Source: Polyangia bacterium (lineage in GTDB: Bacteria > Myxococcota_A > Polyangia > Fen-1088). From it: a DNA stretch of 64,000 bases. A model generated the notes under the pieces. That model did no database searches, was not told the DNA's origin, and saw only the letters and a list, made by a program, of their open reading frames with translations. Of this stretch, positions 21,144 to 64,000 are shown piece after piece. How positions within the stretch are numbered: the stretch's first letter is position 1; the number at the start of each line of letters is the position of its first letter. Made by a program: the position numbers and the translations under genes. The stretch is from positions 62,001 to 126,000 of the forward strand of contig DATATI010000074.1 in NCBI GenBank assembly GCA_036268875.1. The letters are read 5' to 3'.

Positions 21144-21160
21144 CCAGCCAGGTTGGCTGG
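21144..21160. promoter_or_regulatory. Perfect 7-bp inverted repeat before the AgmX/PglI gene
   Basis: CCAGCCA (21144-21150), a 3-base spacer, then TGGCTGG (21154-21160). In RNA it would be a tight hairpin 50 bases before the ATG at 21210; in DNA it could be an operator. The following bases (AGACCTGTTTGTCG) are too poor in T for a confident terminator call. Confidence 0.35.
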
Positions 21161-21209
21161 AGACCTGTTTGTCGTTCGACCCCCGCCAGATTCAAGGCCA
21201 GTCCCCGGA

Positions 21210-22925
21210 ATGAAATTCGTCTGCGATCGCTGTCAAACGAGATATTCCATCGCGGACGACAAGGTCCGGGGGAAAATTCTCAAGGTTCGCTGCAAATCCT
21301 GCCAGAACGTCATCACGGTTCGTGAAGCAGGAGCAGCCGCGGCCGCCGAAGCGGCCGGGCCTCAGGTCAATGAAGACCGCACGGTGCTGGCCGCTGCGCC
21401 CAGCGCCATCGAGCCGGTCGCGGCCCCGCGCCAGTCGGCCGTGATGCCCGCTGTCTCCGCCCGCCCAGGAGCGCCGCCACCCGCGCCGGCTCCTTCGCGC
21501 GATCGCGACGACGTCCAGTGGTACATGGCCCTCGACGGCAACCGCAGCGGGCCTTACTCGCGCAATGGGTTGGTCGACAAGCTGGCGGTGCTGCTGAACG
21601 GCGCCGACGTCCACGTGTGGAACGAAAAGCTGGACGGCTGGAAGGCGCCCGAGCAGGTGCCGGTCGTCGCGCGTGAGTTGCAAGCGCGCCGCCGCCCCGT
21701 GCTGCCGCCGGTGCCCACTGTGCCTGGGCACATCGGGCCGCACCCGGTTCCGGGGACGCGCGGGCGCACCACCAGCGGATCGCAACCGGCGCTGGCCGCC
21801 GCGCCGGCGTCGCCGCGCAAGACCGCCCATTCGCTGCCGGCGCCCTCGGGCGCAGTGGAACCAGCGGGGCACGACCTGTCCCTGGCCGCCACCGCTGTCG
21901 CCACCGAAGCGCCCGCGGCCCGCGGGAAAAAAGCCGCCAACGGTATCTCGCACGGCAGCGGCGAGCAGGGCGGCGTGACCGCGGCTCCTTTGGGTACGCT
22001 GGAGCCGTCCGTGGCGGGATTGAACGGCGACGCGGTCTGGACCGATGTCAAAGAGGCGCCGCCCGCCACCGAGATGCCGACGGGAGCGCCGGCCAGTATA
22101 GGCGGCAACGACGTGGTTCACGCGGTGCCGGGCTGGCAGGCGTCATCGGTCCCTATCGTCACCACCCCGAAGAACCGCAGCGTCAGGTTGATCCTGACCG
22201 CCCTGGGGCTGGTGGCGGTGATCATCGTCGTGATGACGTTCTTCTTGTTCGGCAAGAAGGCGCCGCCGGCGGTGGTCGAAGCGTCCAGGAGCGCGGCCCA
22301 GCCGGAAAACAGTTTTTCGCAGCTTGCGGACAAGCTGGCTCAACAGGCGAAAGAGTCGCCCTCACCAGTCGAGCCGCCTCCGCCCAAGATCGTCGAGCTG
22401 CCCAAGGAGGCGGCCGCTGCAACCAACGTGGTGATCGGTCGACCGGTGAAGGCTGGCAAGGGCAAGAAATTCAAGCGCGGTCAGTTGGCGGCGCGCGGAC
22501 CGACGGCGCCCACCAGCCCACCGCCGCTGTCCGCCACCGCCCCGGCGCCGGGTGGCGAGGCGCCGCCGGCCGCGCCGACCTACTGGGGCTCGGAGCGACA
22601 AGTGCAGTTGCACGGCGGCGGTGGCGGCGCCCGCACGACGCCGCAGCAGGGGGACATCAGCCGCGTCATCAACAACAACAAGGCGGGCATCAAGATCTGT
22701 TATCAGCGGGCGCTGTTGAAAGACAGCACGCTGACCCACGGCAAGATCAACGTGCACGTCACGCTGGGTCTGTCAGGCCGGGTGAAGAGCGTCGGCATCG
22801 AGGGGCCGCCTGCCTTCCTGTCTTTGCAGCCCTGTATCAAAGAATTGGTTTCACGCTGGGCCTTCCCGCCGTCATCGGAGCAGTACGAAGCCGACTTCGC
22901 CTACGTGTTCCAGGGCAACGAGTGA
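21210..22925 (+). CDS. AgmX/PglI-family protein (zinc ribbon, GYF-like, TM, TonB-like C-terminus)
   Basis: A 571-residue protein. The ATG at 21210 begins a zinc ribbon of the MJ0042/'zinc_ribbon_5' kind (C5xxC8 and C28xxC31) exactly at the N-terminus, so the upstream in-frame start is rejected. Residues about 100-155 (VQWYMALDGNRSGPYSRNGL) match the GYF_2 domain. A Pro/Ala-rich linker precedes one TM helix (about 330-350, LILTALGLVAVIIVVMTFFL). The C-terminal ~95 residues (RVINNNKAGIKICYQRAL, then GRVKSV and RWAFPPS) match the AgmX/PglI C-terminal domain, related to TonB/energy-transducing domains. In Myxococcus such proteins belong to the adventurous gliding motility machinery. A direct motility role here is inference; many paralogues exist in these genomes. 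Confidence 0.85.
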   Translation: MKFVCDRCQTRYSIADDKVRGKILKVRCKSCQNVITVREAGAAAAAEAAGPQVNEDRTVLAAAPSAIEPVAAPRQSAVMPAVSARPGAPPPAPAPSRDRDDVQWYMALDGNRSGPYSRNGLVDKLAVLLNGADVHVWNEKLDGWKAPEQVPVVARELQARRRPVLPPVPTVPGHIGPHPVPGTRGRTTSGSQPALAAAPASPRKTAHSLPAPSGAVEPAGHDLSLAATAVATEAPAARGKKAANGISHGSGEQGGVTAAPLGTLEPSVAGLNGDAVWTDVKEAPPATEMPTGAPASIGGNDVVHAVPGWQASSVPIVTTPKNRSVRLILTALGLVAVIIVVMTFFLFGKKAPPAVVEASRSAAQPENSFSQLADKLAQQAKESPSPVEPPPPKIVELPKEAAAATNVVIGRPVKAGKGKKFKRGQLAARGPTAPTSPPPLSATAPAPGGEAPPAAPTYWGSERQVQLHGGGGGARTTPQQGDISRVINNNKAGIKICYQRALLKDSTLTHGKINVHVTLGLSGRVKSVGIEGPPAFLSLQPCIKELVSRWAFPPSSEQYEADFAYVFQGNE

Positions 22926-22997
22926 GGGCGGGAGGACTGGGCCCTCCCAGAGCCAACCCGGTCTTCGCAAGGTGAGCCGCGCGGGCAAAGCCCGCGC
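22922..22997 (+). repeat. Dispersed two-hairpin repeat, copy 1
   Basis: This starts on the stop codon of the AgmX/PglI gene and contains two stem-loops. The first is GGGAGG/CCTCCC (22930-22935 with 22943-22948). The second is a perfect 8-bp stem around AAA, GCGCGGGC/GCCCGCGC (22979-22986 with 22990-22997). Nearly the same layout and sequence occurs in inverted orientation at 63.9 kb: the blocks GCGGGAGGACTGG, CCCTCCCA, AGCC, GGTGAGCCGC and CGGGCAAAGCCCGC are shared in order, with a variable 14-16 base middle. This is a REP-like element of the host genome. Confidence 0.8.
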
Positions 22998-23061
22998 TCC
23001 TGGCTGAAACGGCGACGCTTCGGAGCCGGAAAAGAGCCGACGGTGGTAGATTGCCGGCGAA

Positions 23062-25908
23062 ATGCGGCATCCGTACGCGGAGTTCTTGGGGAAGGTGGAC
23101 AAGCCTTCGCGCTATCTGGGTGGCGAATACCAGGAGGCGCGCAAGGATCCGGCGGCGGTGCGGGCGCGGGTGTGCCTGGCGTTTCCCGACGTTTACGAGA
23201 TCGGGATGTCCCATCTCGGCACGAAGATCCTCTACGCGATCTTGAACCGCCACCCGGACATCGCCTGCGAGCGGGCGTTCGCGCCCTGGGGTGACTGCGA
23301 GGCCGAGCTGCGCCAGCGCGGCCTGTCGGTGTTGACCTTGGAATCTGCGGCGCCGCTGCGGGACTTCGACGTGGTGGGCTTCTCGCTGCAATACGAGCTG
23401 ACGTACACCAACGTTTTGAATCTGCTGGATCTGTCGGGCATCGCCTTGCGCGCCGTCGAGCGCGGCGACGACGATCCGTTGATCATCTGCGGCGGGCCGA
23501 CGGCGACGCACCCCGAGCCGCTGGCGCCGTTCATCGACGCCTTCTTCATCGGCGAGGGCGAAGAACAGCTGCCGCCGCTGGTCCTGGAATCCGCCGAGCT
23601 GCGCCGGGCCGGGGTTCCGCGCCGCGAACGTCTGTGCCGCCTGGCCGCGCGCTATCCGCTGTACGTGCCCGAGCTGTACGAGACCATGGTCGACGCCGAG
23701 ACTGGGTTCATCGTGGTCGGCGCACCGCTGGATCCCCGCGTGCCGGCGCGGCCACGACGAGCGTGGGTGGCGGACATCAACCGCTTCCCGTTCCCCGACG
23801 ATTCGCCGCTGCCCTACGCCGAGGCCATCTTCGATCGCATGGCGGTCGAGGTGGCGCGCGGCTGCACTGAGGGGTGCCGCTTCTGCCAGGCCGGGATGAT
23901 CTATCGCCCGGTGCGCGAGCGCGATCCGGTGGCGGTGGTGGACGCGCTTTTGGGCGGCGTGAAGAAGGGCGGTTACGACGAGACGGCACTGACCTCGCTG
24001 TCGACGGCGGATTACTCCTGCGTGACGCCGCTGGTGAAGACCGCCATGGCCAAGCTGCGCGACGAGAAGGTGTCGCTGTCGGTGTCGTCGCTGCGCGCTT
24101 ATGGCTTGAACGAAGATCTTCTGGGCGAGATGGCCAGCATGCGCGCCGGCGGGCTGACCTTCGCGCCTGAGGCCGGCACGCAGCGCATGCGCGACGTGAT
24201 CACCAAGAACGTCACCGAGGCGGACATCATCGAATCGGCGCACCGGGTGTTCGGGCGCGGGTTTCAGCGCATGAAGCTGTACTTCATGATCGGCCTGCCG
24301 ACCGAAGAAGACGCCGACGTCGACGGCATCGTCGAGACCGCGGCGCGCGTCCAGGAGATCGGGCATCGCTACAAACGGTCGTCCACCGTGACGGCGTCGG
24401 TGTCCACGCACGTGCCCAAGCCGCACACGCCGTTTCAGTGGGCGGCCATGGACAGTGAGGAGGAGACGGCGCGCAAGCAGACGCGGCTGGCGGCGGCGGC
24501 CCGCAAGACGCACGTCGAGCTGAAGACCCACGAGAACCATCAGTCGCACATCGAAGGGATCTTCTCGCGCGGCGATCGGGCGGTGGCCGATGTGCTGGAG
24601 GCGGCCTTTCGTCTCGGCTGCCGCTTCGACGGCTGGGACGACGTCCTGCGGGTCGATCTGTGGGACCGGGCAATCGAGGAGACCGCCGCGCGCACCGGCG
24701 TCGAGGTGTCGCGCTATCTGGGGACGATCCCGGTGACGGCGCGGCTGCCCTGGGATCACATCGACATCGGGCTGGAGCCGGATTTCTTGCTCAAGGAATA
24801 CCGCAAGGCTTTGAAGGATCGGCTGTCGCCTCCCTGCGGAAAGCCTTACAAGCAGCTCTTGCACCACAACAACGTGGCCGATGCCGAGGCGGGCGCGCAG
24901 CAGAAGCTGATCTGTTACGACTGCGGCATCGCCTGCGATCTGCAAGCGATGAAGACCGAGCGGCTTTATTACCTGCGGCGCATGAACGCCTGGACCAAGC
25001 CGACGGCGCCCGCGACGCCGCCGGTCGAACGTCCGCTGGCCGGCGCCAAGAGCCAGCGCCCGCAACCCACCAGCCGCATCGAGCAGGGCACGCCCGAGCG
25101 CTATCGCCTGCGCTACACCAAGACCGGCCGGGTGGCGTTTCTGGGGCACCTGGATCTGATTCGCCACCTGCCGCGGATCTTCCGGCGCGCCGGACTGGAG
25201 CTGTTCTATTCGGCGGGATTCCATCCCAAGCCGGATCTTTCGTTCGGCCCGGCGCTGGGCCTGGGCATCCCGTCGCTGGGCGAGCTCATCGACGTGCGTC
25301 TCATCGATCGCCTGCAGCCGGACGACCTGCTGCGCCGGCTGCGGCCGGTGTCACTGGACGGGGTGTGTTTCCTGGCGGCGGCGGTGCTGGGCGAAAATGA
25401 TCGGGTGCTCGGTCGGGTGGTCACGCAGACCGAATTTGCCGCCCGCTTGCCCGCCGACACCGACGCCTCCGACGCCCTGGCGCGTTTCGCCAGCGGCGCG
25501 CCGTTGCGCGTGCGCCGGGCGGCCGACGGCGAGGCGGCGCGCAAATCGAACGGCGCCGGCGGAGGCCTGGACCGCATCGTCGACGTGCGCCGGTCGTTGC
25601 TGTCGGTCGACGGGCTGGAAGATCAGGCGGTCCGCGCGGCGCTGGATTGGCCCGACGGGGCGTTGATTCGCTTTCGCATCGCCGTCAGCCACGAAGGCAG
25701 CGCGCGTCCCATCGAGGTGGTGACAGCGCTGCTGGATCAGGCGCTGGCCAGCCGCACGGAGCTGGCGCGCCTGGGCCTGTGGAGCAGCGACGGCGTGGCC
25801 GATTCGATCGACGTGCTGGACATCGAGGCGCTGCGCCGGCGCGCGCCCGCCGTGCCAATCGCCACCGCGCCGACGTCGTCGACGGAAGCCACGCCGCTGT
25901 CGTTGTGA
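23062..25908 (+). CDS. B12-binding-like/radical SAM protein fused to DUF2344
   Basis: A 948-residue protein of the TIGR03960 (radical SAM) plus TIGR03936/DUF2344 architecture. The N-terminal ~220 residues have the Rossmann-like B12-binding fold outline (CLAFPDVYEIGMSHLG, then GFSLQYEL, IICGGPTAT and FIGEGEEQLP) but I see no DxHxxG cobalamin-ligand motif. The radical SAM cluster is C268-x3-C272-x2-C275 in ARGCTEGCRFCQAG. The C-terminal DUF2344 part starts near 679 (RYRLRYTKTGRVAFLGHLDL). The family is widespread and its reaction is, to my knowledge, not settled. The stop codon overlaps the GTG of the ABC ATPase gene, and the four genes to 29.5 kb look like one operon. A shorter paralogue lies at 33.6-35.1 kb. 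Confidence 0.93.
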   Translation: MRHPYAEFLGKVDKPSRYLGGEYQEARKDPAAVRARVCLAFPDVYEIGMSHLGTKILYAILNRHPDIACERAFAPWGDCEAELRQRGLSVLTLESAAPLRDFDVVGFSLQYELTYTNVLNLLDLSGIALRAVERGDDDPLIICGGPTATHPEPLAPFIDAFFIGEGEEQLPPLVLESAELRRAGVPRRERLCRLAARYPLYVPELYETMVDAETGFIVVGAPLDPRVPARPRRAWVADINRFPFPDDSPLPYAEAIFDRMAVEVARGCTEGCRFCQAGMIYRPVRERDPVAVVDALLGGVKKGGYDETALTSLSTADYSCVTPLVKTAMAKLRDEKVSLSVSSLRAYGLNEDLLGEMASMRAGGLTFAPEAGTQRMRDVITKNVTEADIIESAHRVFGRGFQRMKLYFMIGLPTEEDADVDGIVETAARVQEIGHRYKRSSTVTASVSTHVPKPHTPFQWAAMDSEEETARKQTRLAAAARKTHVELKTHENHQSHIEGIFSRGDRAVADVLEAAFRLGCRFDGWDDVLRVDLWDRAIEETAARTGVEVSRYLGTIPVTARLPWDHIDIGLEPDFLLKEYRKALKDRLSPPCGKPYKQLLHHNNVADAEAGAQQKLICYDCGIACDLQAMKTERLYYLRRMNAWTKPTAPATPPVERPLAGAKSQRPQPTSRIEQGTPERYRLRYTKTGRVAFLGHLDLIRHLPRIFRRAGLELFYSAGFHPKPDLSFGPALGLGIPSLGELIDVRLIDRLQPDDLLRRLRPVSLDGVCFLAAAVLGENDRVLGRVVTQTEFAARLPADTDASDALARFASGAPLRVRRAADGEAARKSNGAGGGLDRIVDVRRSLLSVDGLEDQAVRAALDWPDGALIRFRIAVSHEGSARPIEVVTALLDQALASRTELARLGLWSSDGVADSIDVLDIEALRRRAPAVPIATAPTSSTEATPLSL

Positions 25909-29621: not shown

Positions 29622-32600
29622 ATGATGAATGCTTTGAAGACGAGAGCCGTAGCCGTTCATACGCTCGCGCGCGCCTGCGCCGCCCTTTCACTTGTGGCCT
29701 CGCTGGCCTTCGCGGCTGGTTGCGGCGGCTCGGGCTCGGTGACCCTGACCGCCATCGCTGTCACGCCCGCCAATCCTTCGATCGCGAAGGGCTCGAAACA
29801 GCAATTCGTCGCGACCGGCACCTATAGCAACAAGACCACGAAAGACCTGTCCGAAACCGTCACCTGGGCCTCGGCGACGCCGGCCACTGCCACCATCTCC
29901 AGCGCGGCGGGTTCGAAGGGCCTCGCCACGGGGGTGGCGGCGGGCACCTCCGTCATCACGGCCACCAGCGGGAACGTCAGTGGAAAGACCACGCTCACCG
30001 TGAGCTCCGCCACCCTGCTGTCGATCGCGGTCACGCCGGCCTTGCCATCGATCGCCAAGGGCAGCACCCAGCAATTCGTCGCGACCGGCACCTACGACGA
30101 CGCCACCACGCAGAACCTGACCAGCATGGTGACCTGGGCATCGGCGACGCCCGCGACGGCCACCATCTCCGACGCGGCCGCCTCAAAGGGACTGGCGACC
30201 GCCGTCGCGGCGGGTACCACGGTCATCTCGGCGACGAGCGGTGCGATCACCGGCAAGGCGACGCTCACCGTGACCGGCGCAACCCTGACCTCGATCGCGG
30301 TCACGCCGGCCACGCCTTCGATCGCCAAGGGCAGCACCCAGCAGTTTGTCGCGACGGGGACCTACAACGACGCCACCACGCAGGACCTGACCACCATGGT
30401 GACCTGGGCGTCCGCGACCGCAGCCACGGCCACCATCTCCGACCTCGCCGGATCCAAGGGATTGGCGACCGCCGTGGCCGCAGGCACGTCTGTCATCTCG
30501 GCGACGAGCGGCGCGATCAGCGGCAGCACCACGCTCACCGTGACGCCGGCGGTCCTGGCCTCGATCGCCGTCACCCCGGCCACGCCTTCGATCGCCAAGG
30601 GCACCACCCAGCAGTTCGTCGCGACCGGGACCTACAACGACGCCACCACGCAGGACCTTTCCGCAACGGTCACCTGGTCGTCGGCGACCGCCGCGACGGC
30701 CACCATCTCCAACGCCGCCGGATCCAAGGGATTGGCGACCGCCGTGGCCGCAGGCACGTCTGTCATCTCGGCGACAAGTGGCGCGATCAGCGGCAGCACC
30801 ACGCTCACCGTGACGCCGGCGACCCTGGTCTCGATCGCCGTCACCCCGGCCACGCCTTCGATCGCCAAGGGCACCACGCGGCAGTTCGTCGCGACCGGGA
30901 CCTACAACGACACCACCACGCAGGACCTTTCCGCAACGGTGACCTGGACGTCGGCGACAACCGCGACGGCCACCATCTCCAATGCCGCCGGTTCCAAGGG
31001 TCTCGCCAGCGCCGTTGACACGGGCACGTCCCTCATCTCCGCCACCAGCGGGGCGATCACCGGCAACACGACGCTCACCGTGGTCGCCGTGAGCCTGGTC
31101 TCGATCGCCGTCACGCCCGCGACGCCCTCGATCGCGAAGGGCACCACGCAGCAATTCGTCGCCACCGGGACCTACAACAACGCCAGCACGCAGGATCTCT
31201 CGGACACAGTGACCTGGGCGTCCGCCACGACCGCCACGGCCACCATCTCCAACGCCGCCGGTTCGGCGGGCCTCGCCAGCGCCGCGGCCCCGGGCACCTC
31301 GCTCATCTCCGCCACCAGCGGGACAATCAGCGGCAGTACGACGCTCACCGTGACCGCCGCGACCCTGGCCTCGATCGCTGTCACTCCGGCCACACCCCAG
31401 ATTGCCAAGGGCACCAAGCAGCAGTTCATCGCGACCGGCACCTATACCGACGCCACCACGCAGGACCTTTCGGCCACCGCGACCTGGGCGTCCGCGACGA
31501 CCGCCACGGCCACCATCTCCAACGCCGCCGGCTCCAAGGGCCTTGCCAGCGGGGTGGCCGCGGGCACCTCGGTCATCTCCGCCACCAGCGGAACCGTCAG
31601 CGGCAACACGACGCTCACCGTGACCGCGGCGACGCTGGTCTCGATCGCGATCACGCCGGCCAGTCCAACCATCGCCAAGGGGACCACCCAGCAGTTTGCT
31701 GCGACCGGATTTTTCAGCGACGCCACCACGCAGGATGTGTCGGCGAGCGTCACCTGGGCGTCCGCGACGGCCGCCACGGCGACCATCTCCAACGCGGACG
31801 ATTCTTCGGGCCTGGCCAGCAGTGTCGCGGTGGGGACTTCGGTCATCTCCGCGAGCATCGGCTCCGTGACCGGCTCCACCACGCTCACTGTCAGCCCCGC
31901 GGTTCTCGTCTCGCTCGCGGTGACACCCGCGACGCCCTCGATCGCCAAGGGCACCACCCGGCAGTTCACCGCGACCGGGACGTACAGCGATGCCACCACG
32001 CAGAACCTCACCACCACGGTAACGTGGGCGTCAGCGACGACGGCCACGGCAACCATCTCCAACGCCTCCGGCTCGCAGGGTCTGGCCAGCAGCGTGGCGG
32101 TGGGGACGACGGTCATCTCCGCGACCAGCGGGACGGTCAGCGGCAGCACGACGCTCGCGGTGACTGCCGCTACGCTCGCCTCCATCGCCGTCACGCCGGC
32201 GACGCCTTCGATCGCCAAGGGGACCACCCAGCAATTCGTCGCCACAGGAACCTATAGCGACACCACCACCCAGGACCTGTCCGCCGCGGTAACCTGGGCA
32301 TCCGCGACGCCCGCCACGGCGACCATCTCCAATGCCGCTGGTTCGAAAGGCCTCGCCAGCGCCCTGCTGCCGGGTGCGTCGGTCATCTCCGCCACCTCGG
32401 GCACCGTCATGGGTAGCACCACGCTTACCGTGACCGCGGCGACCCTGGTCTCCATCGCGGTCACCCCGGCCACGCCGTCGATCGCCAAGGCCACCAAGCG
32501 GCAGTTCATCGCCACCGGGACTTACAGCGACACCACGACGCAGGATCTGACGGGCTCCGCCACCTGGGCGTCGGCGACGACGGCCACCGCCACCATCTCC

Positions 32601-33521
32601 AATGCCACCGGGTCCGCAGGCCTCGCCAGCGGCGTCGCTCCCGGCACCTCGATCATCTCTGCCACCAGCGGCACCATCAGCGGCAGCACCACGCTCACCG
32701 TGACCGCGGCGACCCTGGTCTCCATCGCCCTTACCCCCGCCAACCCGTCGATCGCCAACGGGACGACCAAGCAGTTCGTCGCCACCGGCTTCTTCAGCGA
32801 CGCCACCACGCAGGATATCTCCGACAGCGTGACGTGGGCATCGGCAACGACGGCCGCCGCCACCGTTTCGAACGCCGCCGGCTCCGCAGGCCTCGCCAGC
32901 GGCGTCGCCCCGGGCACCTCGGTCGTCTCCGCCACCAGCGGCACCATCAGCGGCATGACGACGCTCACCGTGACGCCCGCGACCCTGGTCTCGATCGCCG
33001 TCACCCCGGCCACCCCTTCGATCGCCAAAGGCACCAAACAGCAGTTTGTTGCGACGGGTACCTTCAGCGACGCCACGACCCAGGATCTGACGGACAGCGC
33101 CACATGGGCGTCGGCCACGACGGCCACCGCCACCATCTCCAACGCCGCCGGCTCCGCGGGTCTGGCCAGCAGCGTCGCTCTTGGCACAACGGTCATCTCC
33201 GCCACCAGCGGCGCCGTTCACGGCATGACGACGCTCACCGTGACCGCGGCCACGCTGGTATCCATCGCCGTCACGCCGGCCTCGCCCTCGATCGCCAGCG
33301 GCACGACCCTGCAGTTCGTCGCGACGGGGACCTACAGCGACGCGACCACCCAGGTGCTCACGACGTCCGTGACCTGGGCATCCGCAACGACGGCCACCGC
33401 CACCATCTCCAACGCCGCTGGCTCCAAGGGCCTGGCCAGCAGCGTCGCGGCGGGAACGACGGTCATCTCCGCGACCAGCGGCACCGTCAGCGGCATGACG
33501 ACACTCACGGTGACCCCGTGA
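29622..33521 (+). CDS. Lipoprotein made of 14 Big2-like Ig repeats
   Basis: A 1299-residue protein: a lipoprotein signal with AAGC (C34), then exactly 14 tandem repeats of 90 residues from about residue 40 to the stop (14 x 90 + 39 = 1299). Each unit begins near SIAVTPATPSIAKGTTQQF, continues FVATGTYSDATTQDL and VTWASATTATATISNAAGS, and ends VISATSGTISGSTTLTVT. This is the bacterial Ig-like group 2 (Big2) fold found in surface adhesins. There is no C-terminal anchor or binding domain; the protein stops at the last strand. It would form a rod projecting from the outer membrane. Start: two successive ATGs (29622, 29625) behind an AGAAAGAGA stretch. Confidence 0.93.
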   Translation: MMNALKTRAVAVHTLARACAALSLVASLAFAAGCGGSGSVTLTAIAVTPANPSIAKGSKQQFVATGTYSNKTTKDLSETVTWASATPATATISSAAGSKGLATGVAAGTSVITATSGNVSGKTTLTVSSATLLSIAVTPALPSIAKGSTQQFVATGTYDDATTQNLTSMVTWASATPATATISDAAASKGLATAVAAGTTVISATSGAITGKATLTVTGATLTSIAVTPATPSIAKGSTQQFVATGTYNDATTQDLTTMVTWASATAATATISDLAGSKGLATAVAAGTSVISATSGAISGSTTLTVTPAVLASIAVTPATPSIAKGTTQQFVATGTYNDATTQDLSATVTWSSATAATATISNAAGSKGLATAVAAGTSVISATSGAISGSTTLTVTPATLVSIAVTPATPSIAKGTTRQFVATGTYNDTTTQDLSATVTWTSATTATATISNAAGSKGLASAVDTGTSLISATSGAITGNTTLTVVAVSLVSIAVTPATPSIAKGTTQQFVATGTYNNASTQDLSDTVTWASATTATATISNAAGSAGLASAAAPGTSLISATSGTISGSTTLTVTAATLASIAVTPATPQIAKGTKQQFIATGTYTDATTQDLSATATWASATTATATISNAAGSKGLASGVAAGTSVISATSGTVSGNTTLTVTAATLVSIAITPASPTIAKGTTQQFAATGFFSDATTQDVSASVTWASATAATATISNADDSSGLASSVAVGTSVISASIGSVTGSTTLTVSPAVLVSLAVTPATPSIAKGTTRQFTATGTYSDATTQNLTTTVTWASATTATATISNASGSQGLASSVAVGTTVISATSGTVSGSTTLAVTAATLASIAVTPATPSIAKGTTQQFVATGTYSDTTTQDLSAAVTWASATPATATISNAAGSKGLASALLPGASVISATSGTVMGSTTLTVTAATLVSIAVTPATPSIAKATKRQFIATGTYSDTTTQDLTGSATWASATTATATISNATGSAGLASGVAPGTSIISATSGTISGSTTLTVTAATLVSIALTPANPSIANGTTKQFVATGFFSDATTQDISDSVTWASATTAAATVSNAAGSAGLASGVAPGTSVVSATSGTISGMTTLTVTPATLVSIAVTPATPSIAKGTKQQFVATGTFSDATTQDLTDSATWASATTATATISNAAGSAGLASSVALGTTVISATSGAVHGMTTLTVTAATLVSIAVTPASPSIASGTTLQFVATGTYSDATTQVLTTSVTWASATTATATISNAAGSKGLASSVAAGTTVISATSGTVSGMTTLTVTP
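29739..33518 (+). repeat. 14 x 270-bp coding tandem repeat
   Basis: The Big2 units are also tandem at DNA level with an exact 270-base period and no insertions or deletions between units. Neighbouring units such as those around 30460-30550 and 30730-30820 are almost identical, including silent positions. This is expected for recent duplication or continuing gene conversion. Unit number could vary between strains and is a hazard for short-read assembly. Confidence 0.92.
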
Positions 33522-39005: not shown

Positions 39006-42000
39006 ATGACCACTGACGTTTCTACCGCCCTGGCCACGCTGCAACTGGATCCCGACAACTCGCAGGCCTTGAAGGCGCTGGCGGCGGTTCACCCTGGCAA
39101 TGGCAGCGGCGTCGACCGCCAGGATCTGTCGAAAGAGCTGTCGGACGCCCGCCGCTTTCACCGCGAGCGCAGCGACTTCGACCTGTGCGTGCAGCTCATC
39201 GATCTCGAGCTCGGGTGGACGCAGGACCGCACCCGCCGCGCCGATCTGCTGCACGAGAAGGGCCGCATTCTCAGCGACGAGCTCTTGCGCGATCAGGACG
39301 GACAGGCCTGCGTGCGCGCCGCGCTGGAGGCCGATCCGCAGCACGGACCATCACGCGAGGCGCTGTCGCAGATGGCGCTGGTCCAAAGCAACTGGAAGCC
39401 CATCGCCGCGCGATACCTGCAGCAGGCCGAGCAGGCCAAAGACGCCACGCTGGCCTCCAGCCTGTACGGTTCGGTGGCCGACTTTCACCTGAAGTACGCG
39501 GCGTCGACCCAGGATGGCGAGGCGTTCTTGCGCAAGAGCCTCGAGCACGATCCGCGCAACCGGCGCTCGGGCTTGCACCTGGAACGCCTGCTGCGCGACG
39601 CCGGACGCTGGGACGATCTGCTGCCGCTTTATGTCAAGCGCGCCGAGGGCGCGACGGCGCGCGACGAACGCGCGCTGGCCGAGGTGGCGGCCGCCGAGCT
39701 CTTGGCCCGCATCAACCGCCCCGACGAGGCGCTGCTGCACTATCGCAAGGCGCTGGAGGCGAACCCGATCGAACACCGCGCCCTGCGGCCGGTGGTGGCG
39801 TCACTGACCAAGAGCGCGAACTGGCCGGAGCTCACCAAGGTCCTCGAGAACGCCGCCCGCACCAAGCGCGGCGAGCAAGATGTCGCGCTGCTGGTCGAGC
39901 TCGGCATGCTGCTGTGGAAGCGGCTGAACGAAACCGCGCAGGCCGAGTCCTACTTCCGTCGCGTGCGCAAGGTCGACCCGTCGAACCGGGAGATGGTCGA
40001 GTTCTACCGCGCCTATTACACCGAACGAAACGAGCTGCCGCAGCTTCTGTCGGTGCTGGCGCAGGCGCAGAAGACCGAGACCGACGTCGATCGCCGGGTG
40101 GCGATGGGCATCGAGATGGCGCGCGCCGCCGACCAGCGTCCCCAGAACGCCGAGAAGTCCATCGAGCTGTGGAAGGGACTGCTGCGTCTCAAGCCCCACC
40201 TGCCAGAGGCGGTGCAGTCGCTACGGCGGCTTTACACCCGCACCGAAAAATGGAACGCGCTGCTCGAGCTGCTGAAAGAGGATCTGGAAACGGTTCCCGG
40301 CGCTGGCGTCGACGAGAAGGTCAACCGATATCTGGAGATCGTCGCCATCTACCGCGACCACCTGAACCTGGACGTCATGGTGGTGAACACGTACCTGAAC
40401 GTCCTGGCGCTCAAGCCCGATCACCCGGCGGCGCTGGCGGCGCTGGCCGTGCGGTACGAAGCCCAGGGGCGCTGGACGGATCTGATCCAGGTTCTCACTC
40501 GGCAAGCGGACGCGCTGCACGATCCGGCCGAGAAGGTCGCGCTGCACCGGCGCGTCGCCTCGCTGTGGGCCGAGAAGCTGGGCAAGCACCACAACGCGGT
40601 GGCCAGCCTGGAAAAGATCCTGGAGGCCACGCCGGGCGACGGCGAGACGCGCACCCGCCTGAAGGAGCTTTACACCCGCAGCCGATCCTGGCGGCAGCTT
40701 TTAGAGGTTCACCGCAAAGAGCTGGCTTTCATCACGCCGGCCGAACAAAAGCAGCGCCTGACCGAGATGGCCCGCATCGCCGCCGATCGCCTGAGCGACC
40801 TGCGCGAGGCGATCAATCTTTGGAACCAACTACTGGCCATCGACAGCCACGATCCGGACGCGCTGGCCGGTTTGAGCGCGCTTTACGAACGCGAGCGGCG
40901 CTGGCCGGCGCTGATCGAGGTGCTGGAACGACAGAGCCACAATGCTTCGAGCGATCCCACCGCCGAGCTGCCGCTCTTGGAACGGCGCGGGATGCTGCTG
41001 TACGAAAAGATGGGCGCCGGTCCGGCGGCCATCGATGTGTTTCGGCGCATCCAGACGGTGCAGCCGGGGAACGCGCGTGCCACCCGGGCGCTGCGCGAGA
41101 TCTATGCGCAGCTCGGTGACTTTGCCGCGCTCGAGGCGCTGTACGTCGAGCAGGGCGCCTTCGGCGAGCTGTGCGATCAATTGACCGCGCTGGCCGATCG
41201 CACCGCCGACATGGCGGCGCGCACGCGCCTTCTAGAACGGGTGGCGTTGCTGGCCACCGAGAAGCTGCGCCAGCCGGAGCGCGCGTTGAAGGCGTACGAG
41301 CGCATCCTGGCGACGGATCCGCACAACCGAAAAGCAGCGCAGGCGCTGGTGCCGCTTTATCGGGCGGCGCAAAAGTGGCCCCGCCTGCTCTCGACGTACG
41401 AGGCGCTGCTGGCGCCCCCCGCCGCCGCCGACATGAGCGTGAGCGAGCGGCTGGAGTTGCTCGCCGACGCGCGCCAGGTCTGCGAGCAGCGCCTTGGTTC
41501 GAAGTCGCTGGCCTTTCAGTGGTGCGCCCGCGCCTTCGAAGCGTCGCCGCGCGACCCGGCGGTGATCGCCGATCTCGATCGTCTGGCCGCCGAGGCCGAC
41601 GAGTGGGCGGGCCTGGCCGCGCTGTTCTCGCGCCGGTTGGAGGTCAGCAAGGATCGCGACGAACGGCTGTGGCTGTTGCGACGGTCGCTGCGCATCGCCA
41701 CCAGCCGGCTTTACAAACCGCTGGAAGCCCGGCGCTTCGCCGAAGAAATTCTGGCCCTCGGCGGCGGCATTGATCAGGAAGCGGACACCGCGCTGGAGCA
41801 GATCTTCACCCAGGGCAAGGCCTGGCCGGATCTGGCCAAGCTGCTGCACGACCGCGTCTCACGCCTGACCGACGCCGGCGAGAAGAGCCGCCTGCTCTTC
41901 AAGATTGCCCAGTTAGAAGAAGAGAAGGTCGCCGATCTCTCGGCCGCGGCCAGGACGCTGGAAGCGATCGTCGGCCTCGAGCCCGGCAATGAACGGGCGC

Positions 42001-45000
42001 TGCGCGCGCTGGTGCGCGTGCTGGAAGCGCGGCAAGACTGGGCGGGCCTGGCGCAGGCGCTCACGCGCGAGCTCACCATTCGGCAAGGATCGGCCAGCGA
42101 TCGGGAAGAGCTGCTGCTCCGCATCGGGCAGTTGCAGGAGTCGCGCCTGCACGATTTGTCGGCGACCTTCGCCACCTACCGAGAGGTGCTGCAAGGCAAT
42201 CCGCTCAGCGCGGCGGCGGTGGCGGGTCTCGAACGCATCGGTGCTGCGGCGGGCATGGACAAGGTGGAGATCGCGCGCCTGTCCGTGCCGCTTTATCAGC
42301 GCACTGACAACGCCGCCAAATTGGCCGCGGCGCTCGAGACCCTGGCCGAGGCCGATCAAGCGGCGGGCGGCGGCGAGGCGCTCAAGCATCTACAGAAGCT
42401 GCGCGCGCTTTACACCGGGCCGCTGAAGGACCCGGCGGCGGCGTACCGGGTGGGGCTGCGGCTTTTTACCTCTGATCCAGCCGATCAACAGAACCGTGAA
42501 CAGCTTTTGGCGGTTGCCGCCGAGACCGAGTCGGTGCCCGATCTGGTCGAGCGGATGCGCGCGGTGGCCGGCGCCACCAAGGACCAGAAATTGCGCCGCG
42601 ATCTGCTGGTCGAGATCGCCGAGCTGCACGAGCAGCGCCTGGGCCGGGCCGGCGACGCCGAGCGCGTCTATTCGGAGATCCTGCAGGTCGAGCCGATGCA
42701 CGCCGGCGCCTTTCGGGCCCTGGCGCGCCTTTATCGCGACGGCGAGCGCTGGCAAGATCTGCGCGCGCTGCTGGAAGCGCGGCAGTCGCAGCTCAGCGAG
42801 CCGCGCGAGCGCCTCGAGCTACTGGCCCAGATCGCCGAGATCGACGAATCGGTCCTGGAGGACGGCGACCACGCGGTGCAGAGCTATGAAATGATGCTGC
42901 GGCTGGATCCCGCCGACCTACGCGCCCATCGCGCGCTGGATCGGCACTACGCCGCCCGCGAGCGCTGGCCCGATCTGGAGGCGCTTTTGGGCGCGCGCAC
43001 GGCGCTGGCCTCGGCGGCCGAGGTGCCGGAGCTGGAGTTTCGCCGCGCCGAGCTTCGCATCACCAAATTCGACGACGTCGAGGGCGCTCTGGGCCTGTTG
43101 GAGTCGATCGTCGAGCGCGCGCCGGCGCACGAAGGGGCGCGGCGGCTTCTTGAACGCTTGCTGACCTTGCCGGCCTACCGGCAGCGGGCCTCGAAGATCC
43201 TCGAGCCGCTTTACGAAGCCAGCGGCGCCTGGGCCCGGCTGGTCACCGTGCTGGAGATGCAGCGCGAGGCCTTGCAAGGTCCGGCGGCGGCGGTGCTGCT
43301 GGCCCGCATCGCCGATCTGCAGGAAAACAAGCTGCAGGCGCGCACCGCGGCGCTGGCCACCTGGCGCCAGGTGCTGGCCGCCGAACCGGCGCACCCCGAC
43401 GCCCTGACCGAGATCGAACGCCTGGCCACCACGCTGGAGCGTTTTTCCGAGCTGGTGGACGTGTATCAAGAACTGGCCTTCAGCCGCGACACCGGCGATC
43501 TGAACGGCCGCGCTGATCTGCTGTCGCGGGCGGCGCGCCTTTACGCCGGCCGCCTCAACAACCGGCGCGCGGCCATCGACGTCTGGAAGCTGGTCCTGAA
43601 CCTGGATCCAAACAACGTCGAGACGGCGCGTCCGGCGGCGGCGGCCCTGGAAAGCCTTTACGCCGAGACCGGCGACATCGTCTCGCTGGTGAAGATCCTG
43701 CGCCAGGAAGCGCGCTGGGCCGAATCGACCGCCGATCGCAAGGCCATCTTGTTCCGCGTCGCCGGCCTGGAAGAAAAGTCGCTGAACGACACCGAGGCGG
43801 CGGTCGGCACGCTGCGCGCGATCCTGGAGATCGATCCCGAGAACCGCGAGGCCATCGACGCCCTAGAGCGCATCTTCGATTCCGGTTCGCAGCACCGGCA
43901 GCGGGTGGAGATCTTGCGCAAGCGCATCGATCTGGCGTCCGACCCGGCGGCCCGGCAAGAGCTGTGGCGGCGGGTGGCGAGCCTCCTCGAGCACGACGTC
44001 GGTGACGTCGAAGAAGCCATCGCCGCCTGCGTGAGCATCCTCGACGAGAACCCCGAGGACGCCAGCGCCCTGGACACGCTGGCGCGGCTGTACCAGCAGC
44101 AGAACCGCCACCGTGATCGCCTCGAAATCCTCGAACGGCGGTTGGCCCTGGCCAAGCGCGACGGTTCGGCGCGCGACACGGCCGTGCGGGTGGAGATTCT
44201 GCGGCAGATCGCCGGCCTTTTGGAAGGTCCGCTCGGCGATCCGGCGGACGCTCTCGAGCGCTGGCGCGAGATCCTGCCGCTATCGCCCGGCGATCCGGAG
44301 GCGCTGGCGGCGCTGGAGCGCTTCCTGCAGCCGGGCGTCGACACCGGTCTGCGCCTGGCCGCCGCGCAAGCGGTCGAGACGATGTACGAAGCGGCGGGCA
44401 ACTGGGCCGCGCTGGCGGCGGTGGTCCAGGTCTACATCGAATCGCAGGACGATCCGCGCGTTCGCGTCGAGCAGCTGGCTCGGCTGGCGGCGCTGCAAGA
44501 GACCAAGCTGCGCGATCCGGAAAGCGCCTTTCGTTCTTACGGACTGGCCATCCGCGAGGCGATCAGCGAGCCCGAATTGCCGTCGTTCCTGGACGCGTAC
44601 GAAAGACTGGCAGGCGCGTCGCGCGGGGCCGAGGTGGCCTCGCTTTACCGCGACATCACCCCTGACGTCTTCGATGAAGGCATCAAGCTGCGCCTCGATC
44701 GTTTCGTCGCCGAGGCGTCCCGCCGCGCCGGCGATCTGGAGGGGGCGGCAGAGTTTTATCGCCGGGTTCTTGATCGTGTCCCCGACGACGACGTGTCGCT
44801 GGCAGCGCTGGAACAGATCTATCGCGACGAAGGCGACACCGCGCTTTTGTACGAGGTGCTGACCCGTCGGGCGGAGCTGGCGAAAGATCCGAACATCGAA
44901 CGGGGTTTGCGCTTGCAGCTGGGCGCGCTGGGCGAAAAGCAGCTTGGCCGCCTGGAAGACGCCGTCGCCTCGTACGAACGCGTGCTGGAGCTGGCCCCGC

Positions 45001-48000
45001 GCGAGCGCGAGGCCAGCGAGGCGCTGGATCGTCTTTACACCCAGACCGAGCGCTGGGGCGATCTGACGCGCTTCCTGGGACAGACGCTGGAACGCGGCCT
45101 GCCCGAGCGCGAAGTGGTGGCCATTCGTTTTCGTCTGGCCAACATCGAGAACGATCGCCAGCACGACAAAGAGCGGGCGCTGGAACACCTGCGCGTGGTC
45201 CTGAACGGCGACCCGGATCATCCGGGGGCGATCACCATGCTGGAAGGCATGCTGGACGATCTGTCCGTGCAGGGCGCCGCCGCCGAGCTGCTGGAGCCGG
45301 TTTATGCCGGCCGCGCCGATTGGCCGTCACTGATCAAGATCGGCGAGATTCGCCTGTTGCAGGTGGAAGAGCCGGCCGAGCGTCTGGCCTGGACCAAGCG
45401 CATCGCGCGTCTTTACGAAGAGCAGCTGGAAGATTTCGAAAGCGCGCTGCGCTGGTATGGCCGGGTCTTCCAAGAGGCGCCGACCGAACGACTGTCCGCC
45501 GAGCAGCTGCTGCGCCTGGCCGACAAGCTCAATCGCTGGCAGGACGTGGCCAGCTTGTTCGCCGATTATCTGGAAGGCGAGCTTTCAGAAGGCCCGGCGG
45601 TGCTGGAGGTCGTGCGTCGGGCGGCGGAGATCTTCGACCTGCGCTTGGGCAACCGGGAAGAGGCGCGCAAATACTATCGCCGCCTGTTCGAAGCCCGCCC
45701 CGACGACGCCGAGACCGCCGCGCTGGTGGAAGCCGCCTTCGAGCGCTGGGAAGCCTGGCTTGAGCTGCGCGCGCTTCACGACGAACGGTCGTCACGCGCC
45801 CCCGATGCGGCGACCAAGAAGGCGCTACTCCGGCGCAGCGCCAAGCTGGATGAGGAGCGGCTCGACGATCGCGGCCGGGCGGTGGGCACGCTGCGCGAGG
45901 TGCTGGAGATCGATCCGGCCGATCTCGACGCCGCCGCCGAGCTGGAACGGCTGCTGCGCGAAGATGGCCAGTGGCACGATCTGGCCGACCTCCTTTCTTC
46001 CAGCCTGAGCCGCGCCACCGCGCCGGCCGAGCGCGACGCCATCGCCTTCCGCCTGGGTAATCTGCTGGAATCCAAGCTAGAGGATCTGCCCGGCGCGATC
46101 GATCGCTACGCCGAGATCGTCGAGCGTACGCCCACCCACCGCGAGGCGGTGGCCGCGTTGGAACGTCTGGTGCGCGATCCCGACCACCGCTATCGCGTGG
46201 CCACCCTCCTCGAGCCGATCTACCGCAAGGCGGGCGACTTCCGCCGGCTGGTGGTGGCGCTGGATGCCCAGCTGGACAGCGTCGAGGACCGCGACGATCG
46301 GGTGAAGATCCTGGGCGAGATGGCCGACATCTATCAGCGGCTGGCCCGGCTGGATCTGGCCTTCGAATGTCGCAGCCGCGCCTGGTTGGTCGACGTCAGC
46401 TCGCAGCCGGCGCTGGCGGCGTTGCAGAACCTGGCTTCGTCGGCGCGGCTTTACGCCCCGCTGACCGAGGCGCTGGAAAAGGGCGCCCAGGCCGCCATCG
46501 ATCCCGAACTGCAAGGCCAGCTGTGGTCGCTGGCGGCGCGCATCGTCGAGGAGTATCTCGGCGATCAGCCGCGGGCCATCGAGGCCTGGCGGCACGCCCT
46601 GGCGGCCCGGCCTGACGATCAGGCGACGTACGTGGCGCTGGAACGCCTGCTGACCGCGGCGGCGCGCATGACCGAGCTGGTCGAGGTGCTGGAGAAACAC
46701 CTGGAGCTGGCCACCAGCACCCACCACGGCGATCGCAAGCTGATCGCCAAGCGCATCGCCGTCCTTTACGAAGAGGCCCTGCGCCAGCCGGACAGCGCGG
46801 TGCGCGCCTGGCAAAGCGTGCTAGAGATCGACGACGCCGATCAAGAAGCGCTGGAGGCGCTGGCGGCGTTGTTCCAGCGCAGCTCGTCCTGGCGCGAGCT
46901 GGCCGAGATCTACGAGCGCAAGATCCTGCTCACGCAGACGGTGGCAGAAAGGCGCGGGCTGCGTTTGCAAGCGGCGCAGATCTACGACGACAAGCTGGGC
47001 GCGCCCGATGAAGCCGTCGGGCAGCTACGCGCCATCCTTGACGACGCCGAGAACGACAGCGAGGCGCTGGAAAGTCTGGACAAGCTCCTCACCCGCGAGG
47101 GCCGGCACGGCGATCTGCTGGAGGTGCTGGATCTGCGCCGAACCGCCGCCACCAGTTCGGCGGTGCGCGACGAGCTGGCCTTCCGCGCCGCCAAGCTGGT
47201 CGAGTCCGATCTGTCCGATACCGAGGCGGCCATCGGCCGCTTGCGGCAGATGCTGGCGGATTCCCCTGCACACGGGCCGGCGCGCGAGGCGCTGTGGACC
47301 ATCGCCCGCGGCAACGACTATCGGCTGTCGGCCATCGCCACGCTGGAGCCGATCCTGCGCGCGGCGGGCGACTGGGACGGGGTGGTCGAATTGCTCGAGC
47401 TGCGGCTGGCGGTCGAGGACGACGTCACCGGCCGCCTGCGCGTGCTGGCCGAGATCGCCCGCATCGACGAGTACGAACGCAAAGATCCCAAACGCGCCTT
47501 CGACGCCTGGGCCCGCGCGCTGATCGAAGAGGCCACCGCCGACGAGCCGCGCGAGGCGCTGGAGCGGCTGTCGGCCAGCCGCGGCGATTACGCCGGCCTG
47601 GCCCGGGTTTACGAGGAGCGGATGGACGCCACCTTCGACGCCGGCCTGCAACGGACGCTGGCCATCCGCCTGGCCGATCTTTATGAGACGCGCCTCACCG
47701 ACCTGAACAAGTCGGCCGAGTTTCTGCGCAAGGCCCTGAGCCTGCCCGGCGATGAGGCCGAGGTGCTGGCGGCGCTGGATCGCGTGCTGCGCCGGACCGG
47801 CGGTTACCACGACCTGGCCGAGGTGCTGGCGCGCGAGGCGGAGCTGGCGGCGGATCCCTCGGCGCAGGCGGATTTCTTGGCGTCGCTGGGCGAGATCCGG
47901 CTGCGCGCGATGGACGACGCCGAGGGGGCCCTCGGCGCCTTCCGCGAGGCCCTGGAGCGAAACCCCGCCCACCGCGGGGCGCGCGATGCGCTGGCCGAAC

Positions 48001-63874: not shown

Positions 63875-63899
63875 CCGATCCGTCACCGCCGCTATTTAG

Positions 63900-63975
63900 G
63901 GCGGGCTTTGCCCGGGCGGCTCACCCTACGACGACGGGCGGGCTCGTGGGAGGGCCAGTCCTCCCGCGTTCACTT
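63900..63975 (-). repeat. Dispersed two-hairpin repeat, copy 2 (inverted)
   Basis: The reverse complement of this stretch matches the element at 22922-22997 in five ordered blocks, with differences only in the middle and in a few bases. The hairpins are conserved: GGGAGG (63948-63953)/CCTCCC (63960-63965), and CGGGC (63902-63906)/GCCCG (63910-63914) around TTT. It lies 25 bases after elbB, in the last intergenic stretch of the window. Confidence 0.8.
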
Positions 63976-64000
63976 ACTGATCTAAACCGCGGTTCCGCTT

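Follow-up and report, generated by a model that had tools for sequence, protein, structure and literature searches.

A hairpin at the 3′ end of an RNA can bring transcription to a stop or hold off 3′ exonucleases. The REPs linked to RAYTs are defined by a GTRG head. Integron attC sites are structured sites that lie right behind a stop codon in an orientation fixed relative to the gene, and bacterial MITEs are non-coding, dispersed elements gained at empty sites. REP, BIME and REPIN repeats, with their RAYTs, are short, GC-rich, palindromic and lineage-specific intergenic repeats located mostly behind coding regions (PMC2817692; PMC3733652). Hairpin clusters near stop codons, which have no U tract and place two hairpins no more than tens of bases from the stop, are described as unrelated in sequence and have been proposed as terminators (PMC8355165), and E. 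coli REPs near a stop codon were reported to stall terminating ribosomes (PMC12306157). We characterized an element that resembles the attC sites, MITEs, REP-type repeats and hairpin clusters in the respects just listed, save that its copies are homologous, dispersed and mobile where hairpin-cluster terminators are described as unrelated. It occurs twice in the window, the 64,000-nt stretch of DNA analysed here, which lies on contig C74 of a draft genome (G000; 6.15 Mb, 95 contigs, 96.8% complete). For a window protein, the nearest named relative is a Myxococcales MAG, with 62% identity, so the genome is that of an uncultured member of the Myxococcota.

Two copies in the window

An earlier note on this DNA had described two intergenic stretches that carry the same blocks in the same order, each directly behind a gene stop. 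Both observations were confirmed, and a covariance model matches the two copies with 96.5 and 50.9 bits. The features are as follows.

21153..22925, plus strand: gene upstream of copy 1, encoding a zinc-ribbon and GYF protein (PF13717, PF14237) that presumably resembles myxobacterial AgmX
22926..23017, plus strand: element copy 1, directly behind the TGA stop at 22923-22925; covariance model match 22923-23019, 96.5 bits
22930..22948, plus strand: hairpin 1 of copy 1; stem 22930-22935 with 22943-22948
22949..22974, plus strand: linker of copy 1, between the hairpins, with a conserved CGCAAGGTGA block; the proposed middle stem is unsupported
22975..23005, plus strand: hairpin 2 of copy 1; stem 22979-22986 with 22990-22997, AAA loop, TCCT bulge at 22998-23001, outer AGCC/GGCT pairing of 22975-22978 with 23002-23005
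23006..23017, plus strand: 3′ tail of copy 1; family consensus GAAATAGCGGCG
23062..25908, plus strand: gene downstream of copy 1, encoding a B12-type radical SAM / DUF2344 protein (Pfam)
63885..63972, minus strand: element copy 2, damaged; covariance model match 50.9 bits, E 2.6e-8
63948..63965, minus strand: hairpin 1 of copy 2, an exact GGGAGGACTGGCCCTCCC
63902..63914, minus strand: hairpin 2 core of copy 2, CGGGCAAAGCCCG; stem shortened, TCCTGG tail lost

Copy 2 starts 1 nt after the TAA stop (TTA on the plus strand, 63974-63976) of a minus-strand DUF507 gene (PF04368) that extends beyond the end of the window. The earlier note placed the copies correctly, at 22922-22997 and 63900-63975, but drew them too short: the similarity between them reaches ~20 nt beyond these 3′ ends, to ~23017 in copy 1 and ~63885 in copy 2, and past CTCCTG the conservation drops to background after ~20 nt. 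Its statement that both stems are kept needs correcting for copy 2, where hairpin 2 is reduced to a 5-bp core and the TCCTGGCTG segment is absent. A larger duplicated segment as the source of both copies, which the note had named as an outcome that would speak against its reading, was ruled out because the flanks of the two copies have nothing in common. Elsewhere, the window encodes a 3744-residue protein consisting largely of TPR repeats (39006-50240), directly behind a 700-aa ORF, and a 1299-residue protein with ~14 Big_2 Ig-like domains (29622-33521).

Family members and their structure

The search for further copies that the earlier note had proposed was productive. In G000 the family is dispersed, with 21 copies at E<0.01 by the covariance model, and comprises about 21-26 single copies of a ~100-125 bp unit, none of them paired as inverted dimers; all genomes compared here are drafts, and counts vary partly with the inclusion of weak copies. 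Since both window copies were among the 13 from which the model was made, a blastn search with copy 1 alone provides independent support. Its best other places in G000 scored E=1.7e-24, 2.1e-18 and 2.5e-17, and the copy at G000:C14:162301-162384 is 89% identical to copy 1. A strict stem-1 pattern, in contrast, retrieved only the two window copies from the entire genome (control pattern, 0 matches), which misleadingly hints that there is no family; it is blastn and the covariance model that recover the rest. With up to 3 mismatches allowed, the window contains 3 pattern matches, a number reached by 0 of 100 window shuffles. CGGGCAAAGCCCG by itself is not above chance, whereas the whole element is.

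Carriers were found in four genomes, all of one order, among the 318 genomes of the class, under strict filters that could miss diverged sister families. The sister families in other genera of the same order (G003, G007 and G011) are ~165-180 bp long and laid out as in G000, with genus-specific consensus sequences on one common architecture. The family in G003 has more than 20 copies with 77-98% identity, one of them a tandem partial copy, and is sharply bounded by (T)AACGCGCC at the 5′ end and GGGTAAGGC at the 3′ end; no terminal inverted repeats or target-site duplication were seen at these well-defined ends. The earlier idea of a genome-specific, dispersed family with two hairpins is borne out; conserved REP tags and inverted dimers were not found. 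Rfam gave no match at the gathering threshold and chance-level matches only in a relaxed search. Plasmids, phages and viral contigs had no match to the element, the named GTDB genomes had none to the exact pattern, and the covariance model found no copy in named, mostly myxobacterial genomes, where it was run on 24 loci surrounding the radical SAM gene. A search of the literature for a stop-codon-locked dispersed repeat in myxobacteria returned nothing relevant.

The fuller G000 consensus opens with CGCTCGCT-type units, followed by hairpin 1 (CGGGAGGGC-TGG-GCCCTCCCG in one subfamily and GGGGGGATT-A-AATCCCCCC in another), a linker with CGCAAGGTGAGCC at its end, hairpin 2 with its triloop (GGCCGGGC-AAA-GCCCGGCC) and finally TCCTGGCTGAAATAGCGGCG. 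Three blocks, CGCAAGGTGAGCC, CTCCTG and AAATAGCGGCG, are common to the copies even though they are unpaired. Across 20 copies, the two hairpins are maintained by compensatory change. The helix of hairpin 1 is 90.9% paired, with compensatory changes present, and the inner helix of hairpin 2 is paired in 93.2% of cells, with double changes in 5 of 8 pairs; the outer helix of hairpin 2 is weaker (72% paired). For the structure overall, 86.5% of cells are paired as compared to 34-50% in slid controls, and 47 double-change cells were observed vs. 19.6 in shuffles. The middle stem (stem 2) had no covariation support and did no better than shuffles, and folding energies were no lower than those of shuffles (z about -1). 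A run of five or more T is absent from 57 of 62 copies, indicating that these are not canonical intrinsic terminators. Individual copies may be missing a module: hairpin 1 in L046, and hairpin 2 in L044, which is the copy also labelled L012. In L048 (1608-1680, minus strand), hairpin 1 is separated from the stop codon of a Fic gene by an expanded CGCTCGCT/GACGCTCGCT array, and the 5′ module there looks capable of expansion. There is also a possible second repeat family (L025:1501-1600, L027:1501-1615, L029:1440-1515 and L055:1501-1630), which reads GATCGNAGGCGGGCTTTGCCCGCCGGAG ... CGGATCTCGTCGCGC.GGGGCGGGC, finishes near a GGGGCCAGCAGGCCCC-type hairpin and seems to have modules in common with the main element.

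Placement behind genes and gain at an empty site

Nearly all copies start 0-25 nt from the stop codon of a gene on their own strand, many of them at 0-15 nt. Judged by neighbour strands, the upstream neighbour is in sense for 23 of 25 copies in G000, and L041 would be a 24th if the small lysine/cysteine-rich ORF ahead of it is a gene. Sense placement at the 3′ side was likewise found for 26 of 33 copies in G003 and 4 of 4 in G007/G011, although the genes were called with a simple codon model that had been trained on the window and several neighbour assignments in G003 are uncertain. Where the neighbours are co-directional, 29 copies are in sense and 2 in antisense (p=4.6e-7, with L041 and L220 re-read by hand). 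The upstream products, called by eye, include FtsH, ribosome recycling factor, DnaK, GyrB, RecQ, an OmpA-like protein, a type IV pilin and acetyl-CoA synthetase. RNA genes are followed by the element as well: in G000 it lies behind two tRNAs and rnpB, and the RNA genes concerned overall are tRNA-Cys (3 nt), tRNA-Met, tRNA-Pro and, in two genera, rnpB. About 7 copies have no sense gene upstream (L037 in G000; L072, L078, L079, L217, L227 and L239 in G003), so the orientation lock is strong but not absolute. Most genes of the window have no element behind them, which argues against a general terminator.

Comparison with relatives indicates that copies move. G001, G006, G007, G009, G012 and others retain the two genes that flank copy 1, but have just 15-40 bp and no element between them; the element was thus gained where relatives have an empty site. 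The G003 family is younger: its ends are sharp, and at unrelated sites the identity between copies rises to 98% over 165 bp. At two other positions, the element is common to genera. It is present at the rnpB 3′ flank in G000 and G007, but absent there from most other genomes, and it follows both of the orthologous Fic genes of G000 and G007, which are 84.7% identical. That these positions are shared while the sequence is genus-specific suggests either that elements have been retained for a long time or that the same sites have been used repeatedly. In G001, which belongs to the genus of G007, the rnpB 3′ end has a different hairpin cluster (L187; GGGGGGC...GCCCCCC, GGTCCCCCC and GCGGCAAAGCCGC) in the place that the element occupies in G007. 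The orientation lock, the tRNA and rnpB sites and the empty sites in relatives all go beyond the earlier note.

A proposed portable 3′-end signal and its alternatives

We favor, with a probability of roughly 0.55, the view that this is a small non-coding mobile element acting as a portable 3′-end cassette, which is probably a two-hairpin terminator without a U tract and a stabilizer of mRNA 3′ ends. Its spread is directly evident from the comparison of genomes, while termination is what its structure and position would predict. Since it is nearly always found behind a gene end and faces the gene's way, what spreads is probably a ready-made end-of-transcript signal rather than an ordinary repeat placed at random. 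After transcription, its two GC-rich hairpins would bring the RNA to an end or have it trimmed with no need of a U tract, either through hairpin-cluster termination or as a stop point for Rho or an RNase, and would shield the 3′ end of the upstream RNA. The role at mRNA 3′ ends put forward in the earlier note would fit well. As in hairpin clusters, two hairpins lie close behind the stop in sense orientation; of the hallmarks of a canonical Rho-independent terminator, the GC-rich hairpins are present and the U tract is missing. Copies that land elsewhere or in the other orientation may be lost, or the insertion machinery itself may favor 3′ ends. Since there is no gene in the element and a long autonomous version did not turn up, we infer that it is mobilized by an enzyme acting in trans.

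That enzyme is very improbably a RAYT, as the earlier note had envisaged for a REP/BIME-type repeat. Short GC-rich palindromes behind coding regions are what REPs are known for (PMC3733652), and the bulged hairpin is also in keeping with them, but a search for the Y1 transposase domain (Y1_Tnp, PF01797) found no protein in the 96.8% complete G000, and thus no REP-associated transposase there. In G003, whose copies are the youngest, the only such sequence is a short, degraded IS200-like Y1 fragment (an 86-codon open frame at L197:1501-1602) with no element copies nearby. The GTRG (GT(A/G)G) head is found at the base of stem 1 in just 6 of 22 copies and never at stem 3, the CGTC tag is at the 5′ side of either stem in 0 of 22, and the minus strand of stem 3 has any tag in 1 of 20. 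Neither the high copy number (over 100) nor the frequent inverted dimers expected of RAYT-associated REPs were found, and the 100-180 bp unit is bipartite and asymmetric, its orientation being tied to that of the upstream gene. The other mobile systems also differ: paired RYYYAAC / GTTRRRY cores of attC sites are present in 0 of 22 copies, which are single, scattered and located also after tRNA and rnpB genes, and in contrast to MITEs the element is strongly orientation-biased and no parent transposon was found. Alternatively, the element may be non-autonomous and purely selfish. The lock would then come from a transposase or recombinase that seeks out a stop-codon-like or 3′-flank motif such as TAA, and not from a host function. 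We consider this a possible, though less than even, account. In G003 the element tends to start right at TAA, the stop is TAA for 14 of 23 gene-adjacent copies vs. 2 of 18 background genes (p=0.0015), and TAA is retained at L072, L078, L079 and L227, where no upstream gene on the same strand is evident; the sharp ends and the lack of a carried gene agree with it too. However, sites in G000 also use TGA, TAG, tRNA ends and the rnpB end, so no single short target accounts for them, and persistence at rnpB and a Fic gene in two genera suggests retention.

Two further readings appear improbable. Ordinary, immobile terminators that became alike by convergence would explain GC-rich hairpins positioned behind genes, but not the shared unpaired blocks, the near-identity of G003 copies at unrelated sites or the empty copy-1 site, and judging from the identity outside the stems, convergence without mobility seems largely refuted; we regard it as very unlikely. 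Hairpins within ~15 nt of a stop codon might instead act as a translational brake that stalls terminating ribosomes, in agreement with the many copies that begin at 0-15 nt. A purely translational role is argued against by the sites behind tRNA and rnpB genes, which are untranslated, and we give it little credence.

It is conceivable, and here we are tentative, that the family represents a mobile element of a new kind, namely a non-coding terminator cassette that a 3′-end-directed mechanism would deliver in one direction to the ends of genes (stop codons, tRNA and rnpB ends) and that would rewire operon boundaries as it moves; copy 1 separates two genes whose gap in relatives is just 15-40 bp. 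Small bacterial repeats are usually portrayed as strand-indifferent or as inverted REP pairs, in contrast to this one-orientation family at gene 3′ ends. The empty site in sister genera makes the idea testable. If true, transcript ends would have a mobile source in a family that tracks the 3′ ends of genes for proteins, tRNAs and RNase P RNA, and the family would illustrate how operon boundaries and terminators can originate quickly in GC-rich bacteria without U-tract terminators.
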